This document shows positions 18,871 through 62,788 of a DNA stretch of 64,000 nucleotides, one piece after another. Made by a program: the position numbers and the translations under genes. The DNA lies in NCBI GenBank assembly GCA_015501585.1, contig JADNRY010000052.1:62001-126000 (forward strand), in the 5' to 3' direction. Each line of letters begins with the position of its first letter. Within the stretch, counting starts at the first letter, position 1. The notes under the pieces were generated by a model, which was not told the DNA's origin, searched no databases, and saw only the letters and a list, made by a program, of their open reading frames with translations. The stretch is from Rhodocollybia butyracea (lineage: Eukaryota; Basidiomycota; Agaricomycetes; Agaricales; Omphalotaceae).

Positions 18871-19458
18871 GGCTGCTCAATTCCACTACTATCTTACCAG
18901 ACTTTTGAACAAGGTTTGTTTCAATGGCGCCGTGTCATTATGAGTTATGACTGACTAGCTTTTCGCTTGGGTAGGTCGGTCAGCCTTGGCCTGGAATTCT
19001 TTACGTGACTCTCTTGCCGTATCATCGAGGATTACGACTATAATCTCTAGTATCATACTCAAAGTTGTAGCCTTTGACGGATTGCCATGGTGGTCATGAT
19101 GCTCTTGACAATGCTCATAGGCCTGATATGAAGCTGTCAACTTCAGCTTTCGATCCTTTTCCCTGGGGATGAAACAAACTTACAACTTGTTCCCCGCCAC
19201 ATATACTTCACTCATCCCCTGTGAAACGGATAAGTACTAGCCTCAGATCGTACATATACAAACGACTCGTATTGTAGTAGATAATTACCTGTGAAACGGA
19301 TAAGTACTAGCTAAAAGTATAAGCGTAAGTATAAGTTTCATAGTAATATAAATAAAAGAAGCTTACCCTCAGATCGTATGTATACAAACGACTGAGGGCT
19401 GAAAGGACGAAAGTCCTGAATATAAGTAAAGTACGCGAAACTGCCAAGGAGATACCAG
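18871..19458. repeat. Spacer with short direct repeats
   Basis: CCTGTGAAACGGATAAGTAC occurs at 19218 and 19287, and a CTCAGATCGTAnnTATACAA block at 19241 and 19370. These may be LTR debris, but no partner terminus was found. ATACCAG at 19452-19458 is the left target duplication of the next element. Confidence 0.45.
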
Positions 19459-20189
19459 TGAAGTAGGCGGATTGGCCGAGGTTACTTTTTTCATTTTCAT
19501 CAGACCACTGATGCCGATCACAGGTTCTTGGTCCGGCGACACATGATTGGCTGAGCCTCTGATGTCCGTGTATCTAATAATATGTGCTCACTGCTGAGGT
19601 TGTGTATCCAATAATCTAAGTAATAGGTCTTGTGAGACGAGAGTACTGATACATATCCCAATTAAGTAGCATACAGCACACATAGTACCAGTCATTTGAC
19701 AGTAGCTTGATGTATATACTTATGTATATATAGGTGCTGAATTGCTTCTCTGCCTGACCTTTGCCTCTATGACCTCCATTCCCTCCAAACCAAGGCCAAG
19801 CAAGAATGATTTGAGTGGGTGATGTTCATGTATATTCACCATTATTGTGATATTTTTCTGTAGGGTGGAACTGGCTCCAGAATGAAGGGGCTGGCCTGAT
19901 GAGAACAGTGGAAGCTGAAGCCTTCCATACTCCCTCCCACAGACTTCTTACCTGCATGGGGAGTTTTTGGGAAAGGAATGCGATGTGAGTTAGACTTTAA
20001 GACCGAAAAGCTGGAATTGTATGAAATACAGCATTTCTAGTGGCCAATGTTCTTCCGAACGACTAACCAGCTATTGACAATATTTAAAGATGCAGAAGTT
20101 GTTGAGATTGTACAGAGTGTCTTTCTACAATGGCTGCAAGCCATAGATCATATGGAGAGAGGCTACACATAATCAAAAACGCAAACTTG

Positions 20190-21616
20190 TAGGGTTTGAA
20201 GGTCCAATTCAATAAACTGCATAAAACCAATGAATTGCACTGAACTGAACCGCAAAATGAACTGATGATAGATGGACCAGTCCATGATTTAAACCTGGTC
20301 CAATTCATGGTTCATCAAAATCTCAGAAAAAAAGTGAACCGCAGAGAATCAGTTTAAACCGGTCTAAACCAGCACAGCCACATAGTAAATATAATCTAGA
20401 TAAATGAGTATATTTTCTTCAACTTTTATCCATAAAATTCATATTTTCTAATGGTCTCAAACAATAAGACCTAATATAAGGCTGCCAGGCCTGGAAAAAC
20501 TACTCATAACCTATTGAACAGTGCCATGCAACAAGTCCGAGAGCCAGTCCTGATACAATGCACTACCCATGGTCTGTTTTAACAGGCAACCAATGACTGC
20601 CAAACCTGGAAAGCATTTCCCAATGGTAACAGAGCAGTGTAAGGCAGCCTGGAGCATAGATACTTGAATGTTTTATAGTAGTTTCTTATGTTGTTTCACT
20701 CATTACATATCATGCATGTACAGTTTAAATCAGTTTAGACCAGTCTGCACCAGTTTAAATTTGCACTGATTTAAACTGCATGAACTATGATGAATTGGAC
20801 CAGTGCACCAGTGCAATCAGTGCAGGTCCATGATTCATCCAGATTTAGGTATTTTATGGACCGGTCCAATTCATGATTCATTGAATTTTTGGTAAATAAA
20901 CTGAATTGGATTGGACTGTAAGGTATCAAACCAATTCATGCCAAAAGTAATGAAGGGAACACTCCTAAATCCACATATATTACATTGTATACTTGTTGAT
21001 TGTTAAGTTACTGTGTCCTCAAGTGTTGCCTAACCTTCTGAATGACTTGGAATGACTCGACAAACCAGATCAGCGGAACATGCGGATATGGCCTGCCTGA
21101 CCATGTGACTATTTAAATGACTTACATCGAGTCATTATCTCACTTAAGAAGGCTTACCTGTACAAACCAGTTTGCCTTGAGGATAACACATGTACTATAT
21201 ATATTTAATTACTTAATGATCTCCCATGTAAAAGACTATAAAAGGAGGGGATTATTGATACACCCTTTTTCTTTAGTCTCTATATTTTGTAACCCAGTAC
21301 CTACAAGAATTACACTTGTTATCTCGATTCTTTGTGTGAACAACACCTGAGGAATTATCTACTGAGTGAATACAGCAAGACTCACTTTAATATCAAGGAT
21401 ATTGAAGGTACGTATTCCCGACACTTATTGTCACCAATACCCGTATAGTGCACACCAACTCTATACAAAGATACCCCCAAAACACCGTAACGTTTAGGTT
21501 CTTGTAAGCATTATCTACCGAGCAGCCCCCGAATCTGTTAGATCGGAAGTATTAGTTAAATACAACTAGTTAACAAGCCTCTTTGTTCGAGACTTGACAT
21601 GGACCTTCAAACCCTA
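20190..21616. mobile_element. hAT-like non-autonomous element
   Basis: The ends TAGGGTTTGAAGGTCCA are perfect 17-bp inverted repeats, flanked by an 8-bp direct duplication CAAACTTG (20182-20189 and 21617-21624). An 8-bp duplication with YARNG-type termini is the hAT signature. The interior has inverted GGTCCAATTCATG and AGTTTAAACC-type blocks and no transposase. It contains a solo LTR at 21053-21599. Confidence 0.75.
21053..21599 (+). repeat. Probable solo LTR inside hAT-like element
   Basis: 547 bp from TGACTCGACA to GAGACTTGACA, with TATAAAAGG near 21238 and flanking TGGAA/TGGAC (4 of 5 bases equal). No internal retroelement sequence adjoins it, so it is read as an LTR-LTR recombination product. 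Confidence 0.45.
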
Positions 21617-21789
21617 CAAACTTGTATGCTGCAGGTTGACTCTTCCCTAAGATTTTTCTTATTTATTATTCCAGATATTAAATTTGGGCATTTCTCAGCA
21701 GCCCTATACTGTCAGAGATGCAATTTTAAGTGGATGTTCCACATTCGAGCATCCCTTAGGATTTACCATCAAGCTTATCCAGCGCAATG

Positions 21790-23176
21790 TTATCTGAGCT
21801 TGAGGCCATAGTTCGCAGGGAAATCAAAGATAACATTCGGGGCAACACCTGAAGGAAGGTTGCTATTGACCTGCTTTCTTGTCTTGTGGTCATTCCAGTA
21901 GTGAATAAAGCTGTCAACAGCTTGCTGGATAATTTTGGGCCAAATCCAATGGAATAGATCACTAGAGAAAGAATGAGCCTGAACTAAATGCCAAGATAAA
22001 TTGCAGATGATTTACATATGAAAGGGCTTGCTCGGATTAAAGTATCCCTGGGACTGTCCCAACTCAATCGCCTCTCGTATAGTTTTACCCTGATATCAAA
22101 GCCAATGCTTCCATGACCCTTCAATCACAACATTTTGAGTACTCGGAAGTGCAACAAATACTGTGCGAGATTCGAAATCAGGAAAATGTCTCTGACTACT
22201 GTGATATCAGTCGCAGAAGGATAAATATGTATTGATATCTTGCATACCGGAGTGCTACATGACTTGCATACATTTCTCCAGTCTCGCTCCCATCATTAAC
22301 AGTCAGCTTCTCACATACCACTGGGGAAGAATTATGGAATCAGCTATAGCCCAGGTAGAACAGTCATAATAAGAAACTTGCTGCCATATTTCTCAACCAA
22401 ATCAAGATAGATGTGCCCAATAGTACTGGAGCAGTGAGCATTTGGAACAGCCACCATGAGAAGGACCTTGCCTGAGGAGTGGCACCGCCCATCATATATG
22501 TCAATACTCACTGAACCCATTCTAAGAGCTTTTGCACAGAGCTTTTCATGACCATCAAAATGCACTTCCTGAAACACTCCTTGTCCAAGCTGAAGGTGTC
22601 CTCAAGGCCTCAGAACCTTTTTTCCAGGGAACCAAATCTCAGCTCCCTCTGAATAATTATCTTTCATGATAGCTCTAACTGTGTCACTGTAATAGTCAGT
22701 GAGCACCAAAGTTCATGAAGTATAATAAGTTGCAGAACTTACCGAGGTATCAATACACCATCCTGCTGAACAATTGTTTGCCTGATTGTGTTTGGCCCAT
22801 TTCTTGCTGCAGTATTGGCTGATACTGCTTTTGATACATAGGTAGCAGCTGTCAGGAGTGGAGGTGGCTTCCGTACAGTCGGAACCTCAAATTGGCGATT
22901 CAATTGTTTGAGTGTAGAATAGCTAAGTGAACGTCGATAAGTATAAGTTAAACAATAAAACAAATGTATATACCTTATTTTGTAGCCTTCTTGCTGCTCA
23001 AGATAAAGAAGTCGTTCTCTAAGCAAGAGTCCTCGCAGTGCATAATCATGCAAGACAGTCTGAAGTCGCTCATCTGAAGGGCCTGGGAAAGGTTTAGCGC
23101 AGACAGACATTAGATCAGCTGCAAGGAACTTACGAGTGCCATTGTAGTGTCCATTGGAACCTGAATAGTTTGGCAT
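21790..23176 (-). pseudogene. Integrase-core (DDE) protein gene of mobile unit 1, degraded
   Basis: The frame starts MPNYSGSNGHYNG and reads DERLQTVLHDYALRGLLLRE, an intron (donor near 22970) and STLKQLNRQFEVPTVRKPPP. It continues with NGPNTIRQTIVQ and then, after a break near 22605, VHFDGHEKLCAKAL (first acidic residue). Further along are TVNDGSETGEMY (second D), VVIEGSWKHWL (E) and DLFHWIWPKIIQQAVDSF, ending at TAA 21790-21792. The order matches the integrase catalytic core of retroviral/retrotransposon type. At least one nonsense codon and shifted frames are present, so it is probably inactive. It is divergent from the alpha-kinase at 23426. Confidence 0.6.
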
Positions 23177-24262
23177 TGGCAGTGATATGGAAGCTTATGA
23201 AAGGGAGAGGATACAGAACATTTGGGGGGAGCAGCTCGATGTTTATATATCTAACCTAGTACCTATCATGTCACCATCAAAAGCGACATGGCACCATCAG
23301 GAGTGACATGTTGATTGCTATAACAGGGGCCATAGGATCTAAGAAGTCATACTGTGCAACACAGCAAAATATGTATTTAAGGAGACTGCTTGAGGTAACG
23401 AGTTATTTGCAGTGCATTCAGCAAAATGAGTACTGACAGCAATATCAATAACCCCCAAATCTGCATCGACCCCGCCAGGCCAGGATATGGGTGCCAGATG
23501 TCCTTTGATCATAAGATTGATATGGGTCTATATGCCAGGTGCACATTCCTCAGTATTTCCGACCCAGGGTCAGACGGGTTCAAAAAAATGTTGGTGTGTA
23601 TAATTCATATAACATCAGAGTTTCACCAATGCTAACCAGAATTTCGAGACTGCCCCCTTTTGCAAGGGATGTGGAGCAATTGTGATGTTCATGGCGCCAG
23701 GGAAGGAGTTTTGTGGAAGTTGTGAACAAAAAAGTGAGTAGCTGTTTTTAACTTATTCATACTGATAATCATTCCTTTGCTAGTAGGTACCCAGTCGTCT
23801 GCTACAGATGCCATCAAAGATCTGCAGGCACACCAAGTGGCTAGTATATCTAACTGATAAGCACAAAGCATCCCAGCCAGTGCCATTGCGATCAAACTGG
23901 GTTGCCCGGACTCCTGCTGGAGTGACTAGAATTTGATCTTCTCTATGCCTCGATTCGTGAAATCAAAGATGCAGATTCTTCGGACCAGTATGAACTGGTA
24001 TGGCCAGAGGATCTCTGTAAGAGCCCTGACTCTTAATGCCTCAGACCATGAGCAAGATCTCGTTCTATTAGAGAAATAGACCAAAACGAGTATGTGGTAC
24101 GAGGATAAGAGTAGACTAATTATGTAATATCGGCGCTAACGGCAATGAACGTGCTGTAGGCATTACACATGCCCCCTAGATTGACCCCACAGGTCCATCT
24201 TACCCAAAAAAAACAAAAGAGAAAGATGGAAAAGGGAAAACATAACAAAGAGAAACATACAG

Positions 24263-26921
24263 TCATCTAATAGGTAACGTACGATGTAGTATGCTGGCAA
24301 TTTCCATAAGTGCAGAAGAAGAGAAAGTGTCCTGTGAAAATTGCCGGATTCTCTGGATGCTGACACTAAGTCCAGATTGAGATGGTGGTGGCACATTGGA
24401 GACAGTAGATCTCCAGCACCATGAATGGGAGCATTGATTGGGAGCACAAATATGGTGATGGGGAGTTTCAGTGGGTGAGGGTGATGGCATGAGTGTACCA
24501 GATTGGGATGGGCAACGACTTGAACGAAGCAAGAGCAAACCAAACGCACCATACACATTGTGTTTGACACATTTACGAAGGCCTGTTGGTGGAACAGCAG
24601 TCACAGGGGCAATATAAGGCACAGGTGTACACTCAGTTGGAGTGTTTGAGAGATGAACACGAGCTGGCGGTGTGCCAGCTGTGTGTTCGAGCCCCATGAC
24701 ATGTTCATCCATGAATACTTTAAGTTTCCGGCCTGCTTTCCGCAGTTCAGCCACCTCCCATGCAAACTCTGAGGTTGGTTGGAGTCGAAATGAAGGGGAA
24801 GTGGGTTTGGAGGGTGAAACCAATGTCAGAGCATGTGGAGATGATTTCAATGTGTTCAATGCGTTCAAAGCGAGCATGGGAGTCGGTGATGAGGCAGTAG
24901 GAGCGGTCAAAGGTGATGGAGAACTTGGAGCAGGAGGTGGTGTTTGAGATTTGGACAGTTCCATCCCAAACTCTTCTCCCAGTCTCTTAATAGACTCTAT
25001 CATCTGAAAACAGACCTCTGCCTGGAAACCTTCTTCCTTCACTGCCCAGCAACATCTTAATGTTGAATCCTGCACCACTGCCTCTGCCAAATCCCTACCA
25101 GCCACTGAAAGACCATGTTGTTCCCAGAGCTGCTTAAAGTTGACTAGCAGCTGTTGAATTCCCTGGGAGGAGAAGTCCAGGATGTTGGTTAATAAAGACT
25201 CCTAGACTCTTAGATGGCTCTGAGATGGCTCTGAGATGGCGGTTCAAGACTACTATTAGATTGTTATCAAGGGTTGTAGTTACACATCATTTGTATATAT
25301 GTGTTTGTCCACAGCCTTGATTGAGCAGCCCAGGATAAATATCCAACACTCCCCCTCTGCGAAACAAAGAGAGCTCCCCCTAAGCTATAAATATAATCAA
25401 GCATGAAAATCAATATACTCCTCCTCTTCAAAGGGTGGACAAGTAGGATGAGCAGAAAAACCATAAGTATCAATAGGAGCAATGAAATGTGAAGAGATGT
25501 TATTGGGAGGATTGTGAGTGATGTGCGCAGTGTCATATGTGCGGTTAAGACACCAGTGCTTGACTTCCTCTGGCATGTCCTTGACACAGTTAGAAGCCTT
25601 GTGCGACATACCTCCACAACGGTGACAGCCATCCATAGACATATCGCACCAGCGATTTCCGCGACTGTCTATAAATCCTTGTCCATCTTCATGGCCGCTT
25701 CCATTGGAAGCTCCCCCTCTTCCTCCCCCTCTACCACTAAAACTTTCCCTAGTACCAGATCCATTCCGACTTCCTCCTTTACTTCCCTTTCAGAAAGCTG
25801 TAGCATAAGCATGAGCAGCCTCTACACAGGAGGATGGTTCAGACGGGTTATTAATCCCATCTAAAATTTCATCGACTCTCTTCTCAGGGTCAAATGAAAC
25901 CATAGCACTCTCAAGAACAGTGCGGCAGGTTTTAATATTGGGCTCGCCAGTAGGTTGGGCGAGAAGAGATGTTTTCCAGGCCTCGAATGATGAATGAAGG
26001 TTCTGGAGCATGATATCCTTGTGATAACTATCAGAGATTGTTTCACCGGAAGGGAGTAGTGCCTGAAGACGAGCACACATATCATCCAAAGCATCAAGAT
26101 AGACTTTGGTTGGTTTAAGCGGATCATGCGTAATGCGGTGATAGGCAGCACGTGTAGCTGAACGTGAGGAAAATGATGATTTTTCAAAATAGGAGACAAG
26201 TGCACTCCAGATTTCGGAAGCATTTGTCTTATCCTTGTAGATGTTTCGGCAGTCTCGATTAGTGAGGGATTTAATGATGGACGCAGCCTGTGAGTTGAGT
26301 CGATCCCATTCCTTGGCATCAGCAGCCTCTGATGGACGTGAAGTCAACCCTGTGGCAATCTTGGCGCTCTGACCATCTGCACTAAGCACCATTTGCAGAA
26401 CATCCTCTTTCCAGTTGCTCCAGTCATCAGCATTTGTAGTGGAAAGTAGGGGAATGTTCCTTCCAAGATTAAGAAGAGCTGAAAGTGTGGCCATAGTGAA
26501 TGAATATGAGTCATTGAAAAGGGATTGGGGATGGGATGATGAAATGAGTGAGATTGAGTGATTGGGTGAAAAGTAAAGCTCCTAGATGATGAATAAAACT
26601 CCTAGATGTATAGTGTGGACACGGGGCCCATAACCTGTTGGTTAATAAAGACTCCTAGACTCTTAGATGGCTCTGAGATGGCTCTGAGATGGCGGTTCAA
26701 GACTACTATTAGATTGTTATCAAGGGTTGTAGTTACACATCATTTGTATATATGTGTTTGTCCACAGCCTTGATTGAGCAGCCCAGGATAAATATCCAAC
26801 ACAGGATCCCAGAGATGTGTGAGAGAGGATCATGAGGGAACATGGAAAGGATTTGAGAAAGAAAAGAGTAAGCCAGAGCCATGACAGAGTCATGGCTTGA
26901 GTTGTGCTGTTGTGTGGTCAT
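24263..26921 (-). CDS. Gag-like protein of small LTR element, split by nested element
   Basis: Starts MTTQQHNSSHDSVMALAYSF at 26921 and continues past the nested element to TGA near 24263. Removing 25183-26801 and one TCCTG copy keeps the frame open across the junction (ISGILDFSSQG). The product is about 370 residues: a helical N-terminal part (LVNFKQLWEQHG, CFQMIESIKRLGEEFGME), a Pro/Ser/Thr-rich middle, and a Ser-rich C-terminus. No protease or polymerase motif is present. It is called gag-like by position and size only; no zinc knuckle was seen. Confidence 0.45.
25397..26494 (-). CDS. Copia-type gag with zinc knuckle and one in-frame UGA
   Basis: Starts MATLSALLNLGRNIPLLSTT and has the UBN2-type gag layout: NADDWSNWKEDVLQMVLSAD, then MLQNLHSSFEAWKTSLLA. 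After AHAYATAF a TGA (25790-25792) interrupts the frame. The same frame resumes with a Gly/Ser-rich stretch and a CCHC zinc knuckle (CHRCGGMSHKASNC), ending at 25397. Total about 365 codons. With no frame change, the UGA is either a single nonsense change or a readthrough site. Gag forms the virus-like particle and packages RNA; here it would need polymerase from elsewhere. Confidence 0.75.
26623..26635 (-). other. Half-tRNA primer binding site (initiator tRNA-Met type)
   Basis: Minus strand GGTTATGGGCCCC directly abuts the 5' LTR. It is complementary to the anticodon stem-loop (GGGCCCATAACC) typical of eukaryotic initiator tRNA-Met, as in Copia elements that prime with a tRNA fragment. Confidence 0.65.
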
Positions 26922-28307
26922 ATTGCTGTAATAGTCCTATTCAGGACAAGGTTGCTCAAAAAAGTGTAAGAGCCCTGACTCTTAATGCCTCAGACCATGA
27001 GCAAGATCTCGTTCTATTAGAGAAATAGACCGAAACAAGTATGTGGTACGAGGATAAGAGTAGACTAATTATGTAATATCGGCGCTAACGGCAATGAACG
27101 TGCCGTAGGCGTTACAATCTCACCCAGCTCCAGGGGGGGTATAATTCTGATACTGAACTTGATCATGGGGTGCCCAAAAGAGCTTTCCGAGTAAGATTAG
27201 CCAATCTTATCATCGCTGGACCTAATATGCTATTCAGCTCCTTGTCGATAACAAACCATATGTGGCGAAACAGTTTTATAATGTCAGAAGTGCCAATAGT
27301 CCTGTGTCCCCCAAGATGAATCTGAGGTATTTCGTCTGACCTGAGCTCACCAGGTGCTTGAAGCACTTAAAGCCCATGCTTTGGAAGCAAAGGTTGATAT
27401 CTGCCAGGGTAAGAAATAATCCATCATAGAGCATACCTGATGTACTGAATTGGTCACTGTAGAAGTCAAGGTTACCAATTTTCAAGTCGCTGTCAAGGTT
27501 TCAGGAAAAGACAAAATCCCCTTGCTGGCTTCTGGGTACACTCGTAACGATATCAAAGGCATAGAGCCTGGAGATCAGACTCTAATCTGGTTGATCGAAC
27601 CCCAGCGACCCCAGACGACAACCCAGAAGTGGTCTGGAACCATGCAGCACCCAAGTCACAGGAGCAAACTAGGCTTAATGATGACCATTTTTGCTCACTT
27701 TTTCACTCGAGTGGACAGAAAAGACACTGGTTTTTTGTCGATCTCCAGAGTAAGTGACAGGGAGTAGTGGCAGGGAGTAACAATCTTACTTACTTACTGG
27801 TGTATATAGCATCAGTGATTAATCAGGCTGGTAAGGGACAGACTAATGTCCTGTTTGATGTAATGTCTCATACAATAACTGGGTGGGTCTGGGACTAATC
27901 TGGTCCAGCCATGCTTACTGACTACTGCCTACAGTGACAGTGGACTCGGTGACTTTGGCCAGGAAGGCATTCAGGCATTTATTGATCAACACTGCTGTGA
28001 TAAAAAGTGTCAAGAACTGGGCTAAAACGGCTTAAGGACAACGACGAAAGCAATGAGGAAGAGTACTAGATAATTTTAGACCTAGTCTACTATCTATTAG
28101 GATATCTAGATGAAGGGAATAAACACGGTGACAGCCAGGACTGAATGATTAACCTCCTGCATCACTGTGGGGACAGGCTGAGGCTTCGTTTAGTCACAGA
28201 AGTGGAGCGTAGTCCATTAGGCTATCAGGGCATTTTAATAGTTAGTATATTGAAAGCATATGATATAAATTTGAATACTCAGACCGAGAACCTGTGATCG
28301 GCATCAG

Positions 28308-29704
28308 CATCAGCAGATTCACAACCCTGTAGGAAGCATAGGGGGTGTAAAATGTATGGGCCATTTTGGTCCCACATACATCCCACACCTCCTACATCTC
28401 ACATACACACTACATATCATATTCACCCCACATACAGAACGCTAAGTACTATGACTCGGAGTTAGTGAGATAAGCAGTTTATTCAAGTCTATGTTTCTAT
28501 ACAAATGTAACGAGACTAGTAAGTGAGCAATTTTACTTTCCTGAGGCGAGTCGGCGACCAGTGCCAGGGCCGATTATTTCCTCCGACTCATTGCGAGTCT
28601 CTCCACCAGTTGGACCCAAGTAGCATTGCATTGACTCCCACAGATGTTATGACACTGTCTCCTGGTAAAAGGAAGAAGCAATGCAGGAACTTAAGCATAA
28701 CAACACAGCTTGAAAGATGAAAGAACTTTGCCAAATTAATTTCTCCAAGTTGCCGGCGCCCGGCAGAGCACATTATGATTAGGCAAGATCAAAAAAAATG
28801 CACGTGGTCTTTGTTCCTCTTTTTCCCTTCCCTCCATCGTCTCTATCGCCTCTATTCTCTCATTGATGTTCGGGTGCTTTGGGTGTTATATCTTTCTTTT
28901 CCACAATTACAGCCGCTGATCATTGAGTTTTGAATATCCATTGGATGATTGTTGTATATACATGCGGAGAAAACAACAAACAGTCCCTGTGGTGCGTTGA
29001 AGTGTATTCTGATGTATTTTCCTCATACTCATTATTCTTTTTTCCAGCTTGTTTGACTCTATGGTAGTATATGGTATGTGTCTTATTTTTTGACTTGCAT
29101 GCCATCTAATCATCTCAATTGTACAGTACTGTTTTTGGGATTTTTGCTGCAAACCAAGTATCCCAGCGTTAACGCTCTGTCAACAGCCGTTTAATTTGTC
29201 TGACGTTGTCTCATTTCCAAAGTTGTTTTATTCATATTGTGGTCCACTATTGGTGAGTCTGAGTTCGTTCTTGTATTATTTCTGATTCTAATGAAATTAT
29301 AGTTATTCTGGTGTTTCTGCCACGTTGGCTCCTCTATCTGATTCCAACTCAGCCCATATGTGACGTTTGGTGAGGTTGTGGACTTGAGATGCAATGCGAT
29401 TTGAGGTTTGTTGATTAGTACTGGTATATCATATTATGTGTTAGTTATTCCATCAGTTAATACAATGTTTTTATTCATACTACCACTTGAATGAGCGAGC
29501 ATGTAAACATCTGACATGAGACCATAGAAAGGCAATGTAGAGTGTGGGGGGTGTGGATATGGTAGTGTAGGAGGTGTAGACCCATGAATTTTGACAGTGT
29601 AGGTTTATGCAATCCCCTTGTAGCCACACACCTGATTGTGGGGCATAGGAGGGCATAGGGAGCATAGTCCTATGCCCTCCTACGGGGTTGTGTAACTGCT
29701 GATG
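28308..29704. mobile_element. 1.4-kb terminal-inverted-repeat element, non-coding
   Basis: The ends read CATCAGCAGATTCACAACCC and, in inverse, CATCAGCAGTTACACAACCC. The element sits inside the right TIR of mobile unit 1. Comparison with the intact left TIR shows exactly what was inserted and a 2-bp AG duplication. Subterminal regions hold several GTGTGG and TACACnCC motifs. No transposase frame. Superfamily unclear: a 2-bp duplication other than TA is unusual. Confidence 0.7.
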
Positions 29705-30093
29705 AGTGGTCTGATGAAAATGAAAAAAGTAACCTCGGCCAATCCGCCTACTTCATACCAGGCTACGGTAGGCCGGACGTCCACAGTTCAAATTTCAAAC
29801 TGGTCCGGCTTATATTCCGGCATTGCTTAGTCGTACCTATACTTATGCATATCAAACCAATGTTTAGTGTATAATTTAGTGCATGCAAGGCATTGCAAGC
29901 TACTTGTTACACGGTACTCTGTCTACGAGTCTCAATTGCATCAGACATATGTGCAAATACTGTCCAGCTGTTGTCAAGCGTGATTTTGGGTGATCCAATA
30001 GCTTGATATGCACTTCTAGCCTCTTCTTCAAACTCGACACTGACCCAGCGGCTGTACTTTTTCCTGCAGACCCACCTCTTCATTCAATATCTC

Positions 30094-31508
30094 TCAGAGC
30101 TCATTCACCGATTCCATGGGCACTTTTATGAGACAATTGAGCCCATTATAGAGTTCCGGGTGCTCCAATGCATCTGCAGGAATATGGCCTGAGGGCATTA
30201 TCTTCTCAGGCTGGCGCCTTACACAATGTTCATTCCACCAAAATCCAAACTCATCCAGTGCCTCCTGAACTAGTGGAGGGAATATCCAATGGAAAAGATC
30301 GCTATCAAGCTATCAGCATATCAACACACGCTTACTGTTTGAGACTCACATATGGAAACTGGCAATATCACTGAATATATGTTCTGTCTTTCCCCGCAGA
30401 ATGTGATCCTTTATATTTAAGCCTTTCTTCTCAAGGAGCCACTTCCAGAAACCTTCAATTGTTGTATGATGGACACTTTTCATCTGAACGGCAGGTGGGT
30501 AAGTTCGTGGATCTATATGTGGTGCATGCATCTCCCTTCGTTGGTAAGCATCACAAAATTGTACGAATAGCAGTCAATTTATTTTACTTACCGTAGGACA
30601 CATTGAAGCGTATATTGCCATCCTACCTCAGAGCCCTTATCCATGGTCAGTGTAATCGGTATTCCTTTAACCAGTTCAATGATGCATTCAGAATCTGGAA
30701 ACATGAATTTACCTCCTATTTCCGACACGAAATCAAGCCATAGGTGACCGATTGCACCAATCGAGCGACAATCAGGAATTGCGTAGAGTTTGAGTATTTT
30801 GTCACTCCATTTATCTTTGTATCCATATACCGAGATACTTGCATTTCCCATCTTCAAGGCTAACCGTGCAAACTTCCCATGTCCATCACAGCCATTCTGA
30901 TGGAAGGGACCGATGGCTTCCTGGGGTTTTCGAGGAATTTTAGGCACTTTCCTTCCTGAAAATCTTCGATCAAATCCACTGTCTGCGACGTTGTGCATGA
31001 TCTTCCGGATAGTGGCTCTACATATCTCTGTAAGTTTCGGCAAATGAAAGATATTTTATATGAGACTTACCGAGGTATGTGAACATTTTTCAGTGCTAAT
31101 GTTGTTCTCACGAAGTTTGGGCCATTATTCTGCATCGTATCTTTATCAACTTCGTCTACCACCGCCTGTTTTACATCCTCTGATGCAACTTTTATTAAGA
31201 CTGAGAATAAATTTTCCCAAGTATTCACTCACCCGGATTCATTTGATTTCAGCGGACACTGGGAATATGCAACCGTTTCTCGATCTTGCTCAACTTGGAT
31301 TTTTTTTGGGACAAGCACACATCAATAGTAATCATCAAGCTACAAAGACAATGTACTTGATGTCCAAGCCATGGTCACATTGAAGGCGAGTTAATTTTTC
31401 CTCGCGTGAAAGTCGACGCTGTGAGTACTTCATCAAACTCTCTTTCAGGACTTTGTCTGGAGGATCTACATTTTCAAAGTGTAAGTTTTGCTTGCCGGTC
31501 CAATGCAT
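30094..31508 (-). pseudogene. Integrase-core (DDE) protein gene of mobile unit 2
   Basis: Exon 1 starts MHWTGKQNLHFENVDPPDKV and carries KYSQRRLSREEKLTRLQCDH. Next come LSKIEKRLHIPSVR, a break (in-frame TGA), VDEVDKDTMQNNGPNFVRTT, and the core. The core has QNGCDGHGKFARLALKMGN (D), ITLTMDKGSEVGWQYTLQ (D) and HHTTIEGFWKWLLEKKG (E), with 42 residues between the second D and the E. Then come KTEHIFSDI and DLFHWIFPPLVQEALDEF; TGA at 30094-30096. Introns of 50-60 nt separate the exons. The catalytic triad is complete, but the early nonsense codon argues for a pseudogene or a wrongly placed exon border. Paralogous to 21790-23176. Confidence 0.65.
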
Positions 31509-31763
31509 GATACTAACAGTTTTTGTCACCGTATCGCACACATCAATAGTAATCATCAAGCTACAAAGACAACGTACTTGATGTCCAAGCCATGGTCACA
31601 TTGAAGGCGAGTTAATTTTTCCTCGCGTGAAAGTCGACGCTGTGAGTACTTCATCAAACTCTCTTTCAGGACTTTGTCTGGAGGATCTACATTTTCAAAG
31701 TGTAAGTTTTGCTTGCCGGTCCAAGAGCCAATGCATGATACTAACAGTTTTTGTCACCGTATC
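31315..31763. repeat. Tandem duplication (221-bp period) at the integrase 5' end
   Basis: Two adjacent copies (31315-31535 and 31536-31763) start GCACACATCAATAGTAATCA. The second has a 7-bp insertion (AGAGCCA-type). The unit covers the first integrase exon and intron, so part of the integrase 5' end lies duplicated between the divergent genes. Confidence 0.8.
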
Positions 31764-32037
31764 CATTTTTCCCACTGTAATTGGGCATCCACAACAAAGG
31801 GGATTCAGTAAGGATAAGTATTGTCTTTCACTGAAATGCGAGTCGCCTTTTATCTGTGCCCCATATGATTCAATAACATTCTCTACAATTCCTTGGCTTT
31901 AGGTAACCTGGGCAGAGAATGTTCTGGTATTTTCTGACGTTAGTTCTAGCAGTGCACAGACCATCTAGCAAGGTATTTATACATGCATTGTGAAATACCT
32001 ACCTCCCCATCCAACTTATCCAGTCTTTACAGGTTTA

Positions 32038-34525
32038 ATGTCTAGTGTTACTCTCTCAACTACCCCATCTGGCTGCCCAGACTGCTTACTAGTCTTTCCC
32101 CGTCGTCAAAATCCTGATCAAACTTGCTTGAAGTGCAAGAAGCTTTGTGACTTCAATTATGGATCCACAGAGTATGAAGAATTGATCGTATGTACCACAT
32201 TTATCTATCTGCCACCACTCATTTATCTTGTGTAGAAATGGCCCCAGTGTGCTGGATGTGGTGTTACTGGCCGTAACCTTGCTCGACCTCCAATGGGCCA
32301 AAAGCAAACATGCGGTGATTCACTTTGCGCCGAAATTGTGAACAGGGCTGTCGTAATTGGAAACATTGCGCCCACTGTTGCATTACAAGGACCTGCTAAC
32401 AGTAAGTTCATGTGTCAAATATTCTTTACACCTACTGATTTTGTTCTTTCCAAAGTCCTTCAATCCATTGGCAACAATATGTCCGATGCAAATGCTTCCC
32501 GCCTTGATGCAACCAGGCGCCGGTTGAACCTTGACAACCAGCCACGAGCCAGTGGAACACCTCTCGACACTGCTACTCTGCTTTCACATCAGCAGAATAC
32601 TAGCCGTAGCAGCGCAGCTGGGATAATTCCAGCTGATCAAAAGATATGGATTGGTGCCCAAGTATGTTCATCTCCCATCGAATTAGCACTATTGCCACTG
32701 AAACAAAATTTCTTAGGCACGACTGAGTAGCAAACCTCTGAAGATTGATGCCGATTTAGGGTTTCAATGGATCTGTTGTTCGAAATCAGATTACCTCCTG
32801 GGTAAGCTTCTTCGTGTTCTGGATTCAGTAGTACTCTGCTAATTTTTCATTTGAAAGACGTTAAAGCACGTCTTGTCAGAGCTTTCAATGAGGAGTATAC
32901 CCGAAATGGGCGCAAGCTCATACATAAGTAAGTCTTGACTCTTGACTTGCTTATTGGAAGTTAAGTTCTCTCCGACAGTGAGGATTGTACTATCTGCTTT
33001 GCAAATAATCAGCTCCTTGAGCCCAACACATCTGGTCTGTCCATGAGTGACTTTCACGCATACTACACCCATCCATCCAGGGGCGATGTGTGTGCAAATG
33101 CCCCAGCAACTTACAAACATCACTGCAAGACTGTGCGCGGGTTTTCCGTGATGTATTTGGAGATATACATTGACCAGACTGCGGTATGCTTCCACTCATA
33201 TTGAGCCAACGCTCTTTGTTTAAAGTAAATATATAGTTGAATCTCCGCATTGAGGCAGAGTCTGGCCGCACTCAAAATTTCAGTTTGGCTAAACGCAACC
33301 AAGTAGAATCCCTTCTTTCGGGACCACGAAAGAGCCGGCGTATGGGATCAGCGCTACGTAGGTTATTTCCTTCATGTGGGGTATTCAAATTGTTATCATT
33401 CCATCACCCTATAGGCCCTGCTACATCGGAGTTCTCACTTTCTTCGCATGTGGGACAAGCACCGATCTATGAGGATGTCCAGTTTGTTGGACAAAAGATT
33501 ACCTGCAGAATCACTGATGATACTGGGGAATGCGAACTTGTCAAGGCTAATACTATCATTTCTGGCCACATCGCGCGCACTCCATTTGCAAAGGGAACGA
33601 TGAAAGCCGCTCACCAAGTACGTGCTTTATTCTGTTTAGCTTGACATGTCTCACAAACTTTATAGGTTGTACTTGATGATGGTACCCAGTTGGTGTTCAA
33701 AGAGTTTTTCAAGCTTTCCCAGAACCGTTCAGCCTCAATATCCCAGGAAGCCAATCATATTGAACTTGAACATGACTTGTTTCGTCTCACTCAAGCCCAA
33801 TGGTTTCTTGATGCATTCAAAAGTATCCTGGATGAAGAGCTCTTGAATGCTAATATTGATGTCGACAGTGAGTGTTGGTCATTTATTCCTTAACTTTATT
33901 CATTCTGAAAGTACCCTATAACAGCCATTCAAATTGCACACACTTATCTGGTTCAAGAGACTGAGCCTTTCTCTCTAGTGTCCAGTACAACTAATACCGG
34001 AACTGAAGGTCCAACTTGGCTTGTAGAACGAAGGCGGCCGTCGGCAACAACAAAATTCACAGGGACGATGTCCCATCAAGCCCGACGTACCGATCGTTTG
34101 AGCGCAATCATCCATGCTTTCTCCCATTTTGTTTACGGATACAGCAAGGGGAAGCTTGTGCTTGCCGACATTTAAGGTAAGATTATCTAGTTGTCTTGCG
34201 CCCCAGCTCGATTAACTGTACACATTAAAGGTACATTGACAAATATTGAGGGCAAGGATATCATGGTTCTGTTTGACCTCATGACGCATACAGAGTCAGG
34301 TCCGCTTTTCCTGCGTAGCTATACTGTTACATTTGACACATCTTTCTTTCAAATTCTAGAGTGTCAGGTGTTGGAGATTGGGGAGATGAGGGCATCCGCA
34401 CTTACATTGATGAACATGACTGCCAGGACTTATGCAAGAACCTCGGACTAAACGACATGTATCCACTTACTCAGGAGGTACCGGTGGAGGCAGATGATGT
34501 GGAAGCAGACTCCAACTCTTCCTGA
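32038..34525 (+). pseudogene. Zinc-finger/alpha-kinase gene of mobile unit 2, one nonsense codon
   Basis: Eleven exons: 32038-32187, 32236-32401, 32456-32661, 32717-32801, 32858-32927, 32979-33183, 33237-33617, 33666-33867, 33925-34176, 34231-34299, 34362-34525. They sum to exactly 650 codons. The N-terminus has two Cys sets (C13, C16, C30, C33; C55, C58, C76, C81), probably zinc-binding. The kinase part shows QLVFKEFFKL (ATP-site Lys), LVERRR, FSHFVYGYSKGKLVLADI, VLFDLMTHTES and SGVGDWGDEGIRTYIDEHDC with GDWG and the zinc-binding Cys/His tail. A TAA (34173-34175) replaces the Gln codon of the catalytic DIQG motif. Otherwise intact, an atypical Ser/Thr alpha-kinase. Its target is unknown. Confidence 0.75.
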
Positions 34526-34763
34526 ACAGTTCCATTGATGGACTACCACAATTTGCAACGATGTCATTGATTTTATACCCAATCCTTGTTTGCTGCATAT
34601 CCACTCTTTAATACTCATCTAATCACACACTCTTTAGTAGTACATATTAGTATACTAGCACTCCAGCAAAAGTACCAATAATACCCTAAGGCGAAGTCAC
34701 TTGCCGGTTTGACAGATCACATCAAAATTTGAACCGTGGACGTCCGGCCTACGGTAACCAGGC

Positions 34764-60935: not shown

Positions 60936-62788
60936 TCATCGAGCGTTCGGCTGCGGTACACGAGGAAGCGGTCTTGGAGTCTTGGGTCTTCTATCCGAAG
61001 GCGACCGCGATGCTGACGGTGTAGGAGGGGTCGGCGTCGCAGGAGTTGGAGGTGGTGGAGCTAATAGGATTGAGTGAGATAGTCCACTAAGATATACAGA
61101 ACAACGTACCATCGATATAGTAGGACGAATAGTGTGAAGAATGGGCGGTGTATGTGCTCACAGGCGAAGATGAACCGTTATCATAAGCAGGAGGGACGAA
61201 ATTAGCTGACTGTCTGAACGACCCGTTGTTTTCCGGTTTAGGGATGATCAGCTGTGGAGGTAGATGTGGCGGTGGTTGAGAGTGTCGGTGGGGCTGGTCA
61301 TAACTGGGTGGTGCATCTTGTAAACCTTCAAAATCAAGATCTGTAGGCTCCTCGAGTTCGCCAGATTTGAGCTTGGAAACGATTTCGAGGAAAGTGGTTT
61401 TACGAATCTCGCGAAGGTCCTTTTTGCGATCCGCTATACCCTGTTCGGCTTCCTGGACAGCACTCTTTGCGTCGGCTGTACGGTCTCCACAAGCTTTCCA
61501 TTCTGCTATTAACTGCGGGCGAGATTTGAACGTTGAACCGAAGCAAATATACTAGACCTACCTGCGAATATGTAGTACCGAGCTCCGCTGCGTATACTTT
61601 CAAAGTCTCTGCAAGCTTTATCAGTATGGTTGAACTATCGCTCTATCAAGCAAATGGCCACACCATGAAACTCGGTATCATTCTCTTTACGGACAGGCAA
61701 CCTAAAAAAGAACAGGCAATGTAAGCGCGCGTAGTATGACGTTACATCAAAAACGTACTCTCTGGCTATACTCGGAGTCTCTAGTGTTCGAACATGGGGC
61801 GAATATTGCTGCGCATCGCGGACAAGAGCCTGAGCCTTCTGCGCTAAAGAATGGGCTGATCGCAATGAAGCCGATTCCTTCGATTCCGCCGTTCGTCCCC
61901 CAGCGAGCATGGCTACTTAATGCAAGAGCTATGGGATCAACGACAAGGAGAGTAGGATGACTGCTTACAGGCAGTGGCCCAATAAATCGCATCTTTCAGC
62001 TTCGACTGGCATTCTCTAAACGTTCTTTCCGATCGGGAAAGTATCTCGAACGCATCATTCTCTGTATTGAAGTTTGCTTTTGCCCGTTCGGTGACTGAGA
62101 AAGAAACCTGAACTGCTTGTTCCAGCTCGTCTTCTTTGGGATATCCTAATCAGCGAGATGAGATATCGAAAGAAACTTTCCAGTCGCGACAGATGTACCT
62201 GGCGTAGGCCCATTGAAGATTAAGCCATACAAGGCATCTAGTTTGCCAATGAAATCGTCGTATTCGTTCATTTTGACCAGCAGTTCGGCTTTCTACTTTG
62301 TCCGGTGAGCAAGCTTTCAGGCAGATGTAAGTTGAGACTGACCGCAGTCTGTGCGTTTTTCAATGATTGTTCCAGAGAAGCTTTTCTTTCGCGTTCGTTG
62401 TTTTCTTCTACCCTTGCCTCCTCGAACAACCTGTAGAGAGTCTTTTAGTCAAATAACTTTGTAGAATGGATTTCAGTTCGCACCTCTTGTTTCTTTGCTC
62501 TCGTTCTTTCTCCTTTTCTTTCTCCTTCCTGCCGCGAAAAACCTGCGAAAATTTCAGGCCTCCCGGTATAATGCCTGGGTCAGCATTTCTTCTCTGATTC
62601 CTCGTCTTCTCGAACAACACGGCAACATTTGCTTCGCATTCCTCGAGCTGCGCTTGTAGCTCTTCCACTTCGTTGATTTGCTGCTTCAGCTCATCCGGAA
62701 TTGCTTCGAGTTCAGATAATGAGTTGATTAGTTGGGTGTGTCTAGATGAATTTTCTGCGACAGCCTGTTGAAGAAATGAAGACGACAT
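60936..62788 (-). CDS. Coiled-coil protein with Pro-rich tail, paralogue 1
   Basis: Nine exons: 62788-62484, 62430-62343, 62292-62199, 62145-61969, 61912-61759, 61701-61664, 61608-61562, 61512-61110, 61060-60936; 476 residues. The start MSSSFLQQAVAENSSRHTQL leads into a long coiled coil (INEVEELQAQLEECEANVAV, then a KEKEKEREQR basic stretch). Next come IFNGPTPG, LAQKAQALVRDAQQYSPHVR, PSIARELPVRKENDTEFH, KSAVQEAEQGIADRKKDLRE and GELEEPTDLDF. A Pro-rich tail (PPPHLPPQLIIPKP; APPPPTPATPTPPTPS) closes it. It resembles an uncharacterised basidiomycete coiled-coil family; I have no function to assign. Two exons are very short (38 and 47 nt). Confidence 0.75.

Follow-up and report, generated by a model that had tools for sequence, protein, structure and literature searches.

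Transposons of the IS3EU kind that carry a TET gene have been described from rust fungi and the truffle Tuber indicum, and all of those families have a TET/JBP gene between oppositely oriented genes for a transposase and an alpha-kinase (Kojima 2025, PMC12730594; this and the other papers cited here are represented by the portions of text available). Ganoderma is a further host for which IS3EU elements are recorded (PMC8955403), and Styx of Zymoseptoria is thought to derive from such an element (PMC10853768). We describe here two neighbouring units, 1 and 2, in the genome of the mushroom Rhodocollybia butyracea, in which an integrase-like gene and an alpha-kinase gene lie between terminal inverted repeats. 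They are found in a stretch of 64,000 nucleotides, the window (positions 62,001 to 126,000 of JADNRY010000052.1), which is part of contig C850 in the 95.6-Mb assembly GCA_015501585.1; loci elsewhere in the assembly are named by their contigs. We hold with good confidence that both units are IS3EU/GingerRoot transposons with a DDE transposase and a divergent Cys-rich alpha-kinase, that the kinase is most likely a selected second transposon protein, and that both units are probably dead.

Because the transposase/alpha-kinase pair has already been described for the rust and truffle elements, the kind is known and the units here are a mushroom member of it. The elements found here share with those of rusts and the truffle the opposite orientation of the pair, the 6-bp target-site duplications and terminal repeats of more than 30 bp, and six elements of this genome match the TAYGG..CCRTA ends of rust IS3EU (PMC12730594). 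The rust and truffle elements differ in having a dioxygenase gene between the two others (PMC12730594), whereas a search here for this third gene gave four Pfam Tet_JBP matches in the genome, all below the cut-off and none at these loci. GingerRoot elements resemble the present ones in their integrase-like transposase, 6-bp duplications and termini, which are TA..TA or in some cases TG..CA, as in unit 1, but the hosts named for them are a clubmoss and, supposedly, animals, and the word “kinase” is not in the main text of Kojima 2023 as available (PMC10045372). Styx is likewise fungal, IS3EU-related and furnished with extra genes beside its transposase, but these are GATA, CCHC and DUF3577 genes, and a predicted protein kinase appears in the available text only as a neighbouring duplicated gene (PMC10853768). 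The head-to-head and tail-to-tail gene orders, the Cys4 motifs of the kinase and the third-codon-position bias in both genes were not found in the available portions of the Kojima papers, and open-licence full texts yielded no account of such a pair in mushrooms, and none of the Cys4 motifs or of a function for the kinase.

Recurrence of the gene pair in the genome

Searching the whole genome with Pfam PF02816 gave at least 14 matches at no fewer than 11 non-allelic loci; the alpha-kinase loci listed are units 1 and 2, C180, C712, C759, C459, C816, C1227, C823, C525 and C647. When 61 integrase relatives were used as queries (E 1e-4) on the stretches fetched around these loci, 8 of the 11 had an integrase relative in the same stretch: units 1 and 2, C180, C816, C459, C823, C525 and C712, the last with a weak match (3.7e-6, one query). 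No integrase relative was seen in the fetched stretches of C759, C1227 and C647. Seven of the 11 (units 1 and 2, C180, C759, C816, C823 and C525) lie inside terminal repeats with flush 6–7-bp duplications, and nine pass at least one of these two tests. A paired element beyond the 11 was found at C472, and at C1083 and its partner C32 there are stretches of DNA that resemble both genes. Most of the alpha-kinase loci listed for this genome lie in elements of the IS3EU/GingerRoot type. In the rest of the window (ca. 49 kb outside both units) there was no integrase or kinase match, the 61 integrase relatives being among the queries.

The first-pass annotation had read the two units as a mobile module of integrase and kinase, and had proposed that transposition of the module explains an expansion of alpha-kinases. 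The module is supported: the pairing recurs at further loci and is not confined to the window, and diverged copies in this genome have terminal repeats of their own, which enclose both genes and are flanked by 6–7-bp duplications. Within this genome, transposition accounts for nine of the 11 listed alpha-kinase loci. The general expansion in Agaricomycetes, which had been given as known, was not found in open-licence full texts; one alpha-kinase was counted in a 2010 kinome survey of 30 fungi, in the part of it available (PMC2838846).

The two genes are on opposite strands in either of two orders – head-to-head in units 1 and 2, C180, C816 and C459, and tail-to-tail in C823, C525, C472 and, weakly, C712. 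The integrases of the paired families are ca. 35–50% identical in the compared pieces. The 10-kb form at C816 and C459 has a third large gene, in several frames with up to 639 aa open (C816:196479-200726, C459:93315-97280), and this gene has no clear Pfam match.

Eleven elements have two readable ends. The duplication is 6 bp at seven of them (unit 1, C759, C816, C927, C823, C525 and C439) and 7 bp at three (unit 2, C180 and C594, whose end is partly lost), with one extra matching base expected by chance in about a quarter of cases; there is none at C472. Both ends have TA in unit 2, C180, C759, C816, C927, C823, C525 and C472, while unit 1, C439 and C594 have TG..CA. TAYGG is found at both ends of six elements (C759, C816, C927, C823, C525 and C472) and at one end only in unit 2. 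The terminal inverted repeats span 31 nt (C759) to 362 nt (C472). C927, in which the ends and kinase part were examined, belongs to the C759 family, with DNA 96% similar over the kinase part.

An empty site, proposed earlier as a check, was found for C759, the copy with a kinase and no detected integrase: C1205 near 24684 is continuous through the C759 flanks and has one TATTGG where C759 has two. The flanks are repeats 84–90% identical, so the site is paralogous rather than allelic. C759 itself seems to have arisen by internal deletion from the 10-kb form seen at C816, in which the part that C759 lacks holds the integrase. Searches with the whole insertions at C823, C525 and C180 matched flanking repeats, and in the case of C823 also relatives of the element itself; no uninterrupted site was recognised.

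Features of the kinase and the transposase

A spliced model of the unit 2 kinase matches the whole Pfam Alpha_kinase profile (PF02816, 1-185) at E 3e-25 and the TRPM7 chain 1ia9 at 1.5e-7, which bears out the earlier description of a plus-strand gene with paired Cys and alpha-kinase hallmarks; in unit 2 the latter include DLMTHT and SGVGDWGDEGI. The alpha-kinase hallmarks – Lys, DxQ, the Gly-rich motif and the His/Cys zinc residues – were found, and DxQ is readable in the kinases of C180, C1227, C712, C647, C823, C525, C472 and unit 1. By a simple pattern scan, run without a shuffled control, the kinase domain is preceded on its own strand by two Cys4 motifs in unit 2, C823, C525 and C472, by one Cys4-type motif in unit 1 and by related motifs in C816, with one looser match each in C712 and C647 and none upstream of the kinase in C180, C1227 and C1083. 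TRPM7, MHCK and eEF2K have the kinase domain in common with these proteins, but carry channel or WD parts instead of Cys4 motifs, while the kinases here are transposon-borne with the motifs at the N-terminus. In a protein collection, 7997 candidates sharing the most words were scored as kinase homologues and none reached E 0.001, a limit of the word-based search that is not read as absence.

Of the 364 residues of the R. butyracea gene model P0006, 350 fall within exact 12-residue matches to the integrase gene of unit 2 in the window, and 335 within such matches to the second haplotype, C583. The catalytic residues of P0006 are D ca. 152, D218 and E261, with the first D within 100–300 residues of the N-terminus. 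An integrase fold is predicted for the transposase, integrases were recovered by a fold search, and there are weak matches to IS3 and IS481 models. The sequences of solved structures, searched with the integrase profile, gave nothing at E 1, and in viral contigs, searched with the integrase alignment, 61 stretches fit a pattern and none was confirmed.

Units 1 and 2 and the DNA inserted in them

The features of the window and of the elements used for comparison are given in Table 1. Inverted termini had been noticed on both units in the first-pass annotation, and they hold for both. In the part of the window between 19001 and 36000 the best inverted repeat scored 51, against 12–16 in 20 dinucleotide shuffles. 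Other parts of that observation were confirmed for unit 2 only: flanking duplications of 7 bp, the string GTAGGCnGGA in the termini, and a minus-strand integrase core with D, D and E. In unit 1 the duplication is one base shorter; the termini read GTAGGCGGA, with GTAGGC as the common part; and the second-D region is VNDGSE in both haplotypes where most relatives have DKGSE, so that this D is out of register.

Table 1. Units 1 and 2, the sequences within them, and related elements elsewhere in the assembly
Feature	Position	Strand	Length	Details
Unit 1, decayed DNA transposon	19459..29755			ends TGAAG..CTTCA (TG..CA); inverted-repeat search and reading of ends
Unit 1 terminal inverted repeats	19459-19512 / 29702-29755		54 nt	98%
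Unit 1 terminal repeat, continuation	19508-19533 / 28282-28307			separated by insert today
Unit 1 left target-site duplication	19453..19458		6 bp	TACCAG, flush
Unit 1 right target-site duplication	29756..29761			TACCAG; overlaps left duplication of unit 2
Unit 1 integrase-like transposase remnant	21781..23176	-		FDGHEKL (first D) and VIEGSW (E) retained; in-frame stops
Unit 1 alpha-kinase remnant	23426..28055	+		Cys motif, VAKQFY, DLQS, VLFDVMSHT, SGLGDFGQEGI, HCCDKKC
Terminal-repeat DNA element in unit 1	20190..21616		1.4 kb	TAGGG..CCCTA; 8-bp duplication CAAACTTG, read by eye
Older long terminal repeat (LTR) element in unit 1 kinase gene	24016..27116			LTRs 24016-24167 / 26965-27116, 152 nt, 97%; duplication ATCTC, 5 bp
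Younger LTR element nested in older	25183..26801			identical 167-nt repeats; 5-bp duplication CAGGA
Repeat within right terminal repeat of unit 1	28304..29704 (ends approximate)		1.4 kb	95% relative C1079:16654-18053
Unit 2, DNA transposon	29764..34756		4993 bp	ends TACGG..CGGTA (TA..TA)
Unit 2 terminal repeats	29764-29795 / 34725-34756		32 nt	without target bases
Unit 2 inverted repeat with target bases	29758-29795 / 34725-34762		38 nt	89%
Unit 2 left target-site duplication	29757..29763		7 bp	ACCAGGC, flush
Unit 2 right target-site duplication	34757..34763		7 bp	ACCAGGC
Unit 2 integrase-like transposase gene	29913..31788	-		several introns; D (DGH), D (DKGSE), E (TIEGFW) retained
Unit 2 alpha-kinase gene	32038..34525	+		two N-terminal Cys4 motifs, LVFKEFF, DLMTHT, SGVGDWGDEGI, full alpha-kinase domain
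C180			5216 bp	duplication GTACTAG (7 bp); TA at both ends; terminal repeats 36 nt
C759			6823 bp	duplication TATTGG (6 bp); terminal repeats 31 nt
C816			10331 bp	duplication GGAGAC (6 bp)
C823			5948 bp	duplication AACGAG (6 bp); terminal repeats 75 nt
C525			5673 bp	duplication ACTGCC (6 bp); terminal repeats 34 nt
C927, further C759-family member	180154-197063			duplication AGAAGG (6 bp)
C472				terminal repeats 362 nt; TACGG ends

At 29756-29763 the duplications of the two units run into each other, which means that one element inserted at the border of the other. C583, which is ca. 98–99% identical to the window around both units, carries them at the same position, and this ruled it out as an empty site. 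There the left end of unit 2 is damaged, since about 10 bp including the terminal bases are gone near C583 25145 (window 29757-29775). Neither haplotype has an undamaged copy of any of the four genes, in-frame stops being among the lesions, and the units are probably both dead. The unit 2 integrase gene has one in-frame stop near its C-terminal end and the unit 2 kinase gene one within its DxQG motif, in each case in both haplotypes; a 221-bp tandem duplication in the integrase gene (31315-31535 / 31536-31763) is in the window haplotype only. A 7-bp insertion or deletion thought to break the same gene was dropped as a lesion because the gene model P0006 places it in an intron. In unit 1 the outer LTR element breaks the kinase gene in two in both haplotypes, and the FFVDLQS string of this gene is present in the window haplotype but not in C583.

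A related 2-kb copy on C439 is bounded on either side by the unit 1 terminal repeat, with TG..CA ends and a 6-bp duplication, GTAACA, read by eye. C594 also has a terminal repeat of the unit 1 type with TG..CA; part of its right end is gone, and the match between its flanks is 7 bp long (TTCCAAT, by eye).

Four foreign sequences lie within unit 1. The older LTR element has a 312-aa frame on the minus strand that is split by the younger one. The younger has a CCHC-type gag-like frame, also on the minus strand, and no long polymerase-like frame listed inside it; it is missing from the second haplotype and is therefore a polymorphic recent insertion. The terminal-repeat element at 20190-21616 we take to be hAT-like. 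The repeat at 28304-29704 has partial relatives elsewhere too. At window position 19685, C583 has about 370 extra bases starting with ATCAGGAAAAGCTGTTTTT, and their likeness to hairpin-type repeats seen in C180 and C647 points to a polymorphic small repeat in C583.

Role of the kinase and affiliation of the elements

Judging from the family and the duplications, the transposase would excise the element after binding its terminal repeats and insert it into target DNA cut with a 6-bp stagger. The kinase would be a second transposon protein that regulates or enables transposition. In the simplest case its substrate may be the transposase, or else a host factor of chromatin or repair, and its Cys motifs may serve to bind DNA or a partner.

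The kinase is more likely a helper than cargo. Differences at codon positions 1, 2 and 3 were counted in defined exons of three elements, C823, C525 and C472 (126–127 kinase and 278–293 integrase codons), and have to be read with the choice of exons in mind, as these were picked for being recognisable and are biased toward conserved ones. Between C823 and C525 there were 35, 23 and 76 differences in the kinase (126 codons) and 50, 28 and 125 in the integrase (286 codons). The corresponding figures were 37, 23 and 80 and 76, 47 and 164 between C823 and C472, and 38, 30 and 81 and 78, 40 and 163 between C525 and C472. The bias toward third positions is a sign in the sequences that both proteins were constrained while the families diverged, and in the recognisable kinase exons it favours a helper over passive cargo. 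Estimates of dN/dS from tblastx pieces were set aside for questions of selection, as pieces from the wrong strand were possibly included.

Besides the choice of exons, several observations weigh against reading the elements as IS3EU/GingerRoot transposons with a selected kinase. Among the young copies C759, C816 and C459 the dN/dS of the kinase is 0.49–0.74 in the main exon, 0.36–1.17 in the second and 0.14 in the third (one pair), so recent constraint on the kinase is weak or uneven in this family. The two genes are also not always together. Between the clean ends of C759 a kinase but no integrase was detected; C1227 and C647 have neither an integrase nor a spanning terminal repeat within 10 kb; and C1083 has no integrase match at the protein level and no readable ends. 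C620 has an integrase, in a large inverted repeat, with no kinase within 9 kb, and C478 has a short integrase piece with no kinase match in the 5.8 kb up to the contig end; further integrase places at C1173, C628, C929, C777, C339, C994 and C739 lie outside this check for a kinase partner. At C472 no target duplication was found despite the long inverted repeats that bound it, unit 1 and C180 are without TAYGG ends, as are C439 and C594, and in the C816 kinase domain no DxQ was picked out by the motif scan. Compared with published descriptions, the elements fit the IS3EU/GingerRoot group in their ends and duplications, in the fold of the transposase and in the orientation of the genes. The kinases of C1227 and C647, without the twin Cys4 motif, are possibly host genes or escaped transposon kinases.

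A stronger version of the helper idea, that fungal IS3EU elements need the Cys-motif kinase as a second protein for transposition, which would make them DNA transposons under the control of a kinase of their own, and that most mushroom alpha-kinase genes are resident or escaped transposon genes, we regard as rather doubtful. The main alternative to the helper role, though an unlikely one, is passive cargo: a kinase gene taken from the host in one or more captures and carried along with no role in transposition. The kinase-only C759 copy, the two kinase loci outside recognisable elements and the uneven constraint in the young copies would suit such a history, but the pairing persists in families whose integrases have diverged as far as those described above, the Cys4 motifs are present in both gene orders, the third-position bias extends to the kinase exons, and rust and truffle elements carry the same pair in the published text available (PMC12730594).

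Still less probable is an affiliation with Ginger1/Ginger2, or with fragments of Polintons, in place of IS3EU/GingerRoot. An integrase-like DDE core is common to all of these and, according to the available text, Polintons likewise make 6-bp duplications (PMC10045372), but the 6–7-bp duplications here stand against the 4–5 bp of Ginger1/2, and the small size of the elements, their TA..TA and TAYGG ends and the alpha-kinase partner reported for IS3EU (PMC12730594, in the part available) all speak for the IS3EU/GingerRoot group. The traits of that group found here are duplications of about 6 bp, TA..TA or TG..CA ends, repeats longer than 30 bp, a DDE core and an alpha-kinase on the opposite strand. 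Chance adjacency of unrelated genes and repeats has a negligible probability even in a region so rich in nested insertions, since it is contradicted by terminal repeats far above the shuffles, flush duplications, an empty site and recurrent pairs at C180, C816, C459, C823, C525, C472 and, weakly, C712.

A protein kinase that is encoded and maintained by a transposon is unusual. That kinase and transposase go together across several diverged families, in either gene order and with signs of coding constraint, makes of what had been a short remark in the literature a testable question – what does the transposon phosphorylate? – and counts of alpha-kinases in mushroom genomes may largely be counts of transposons.

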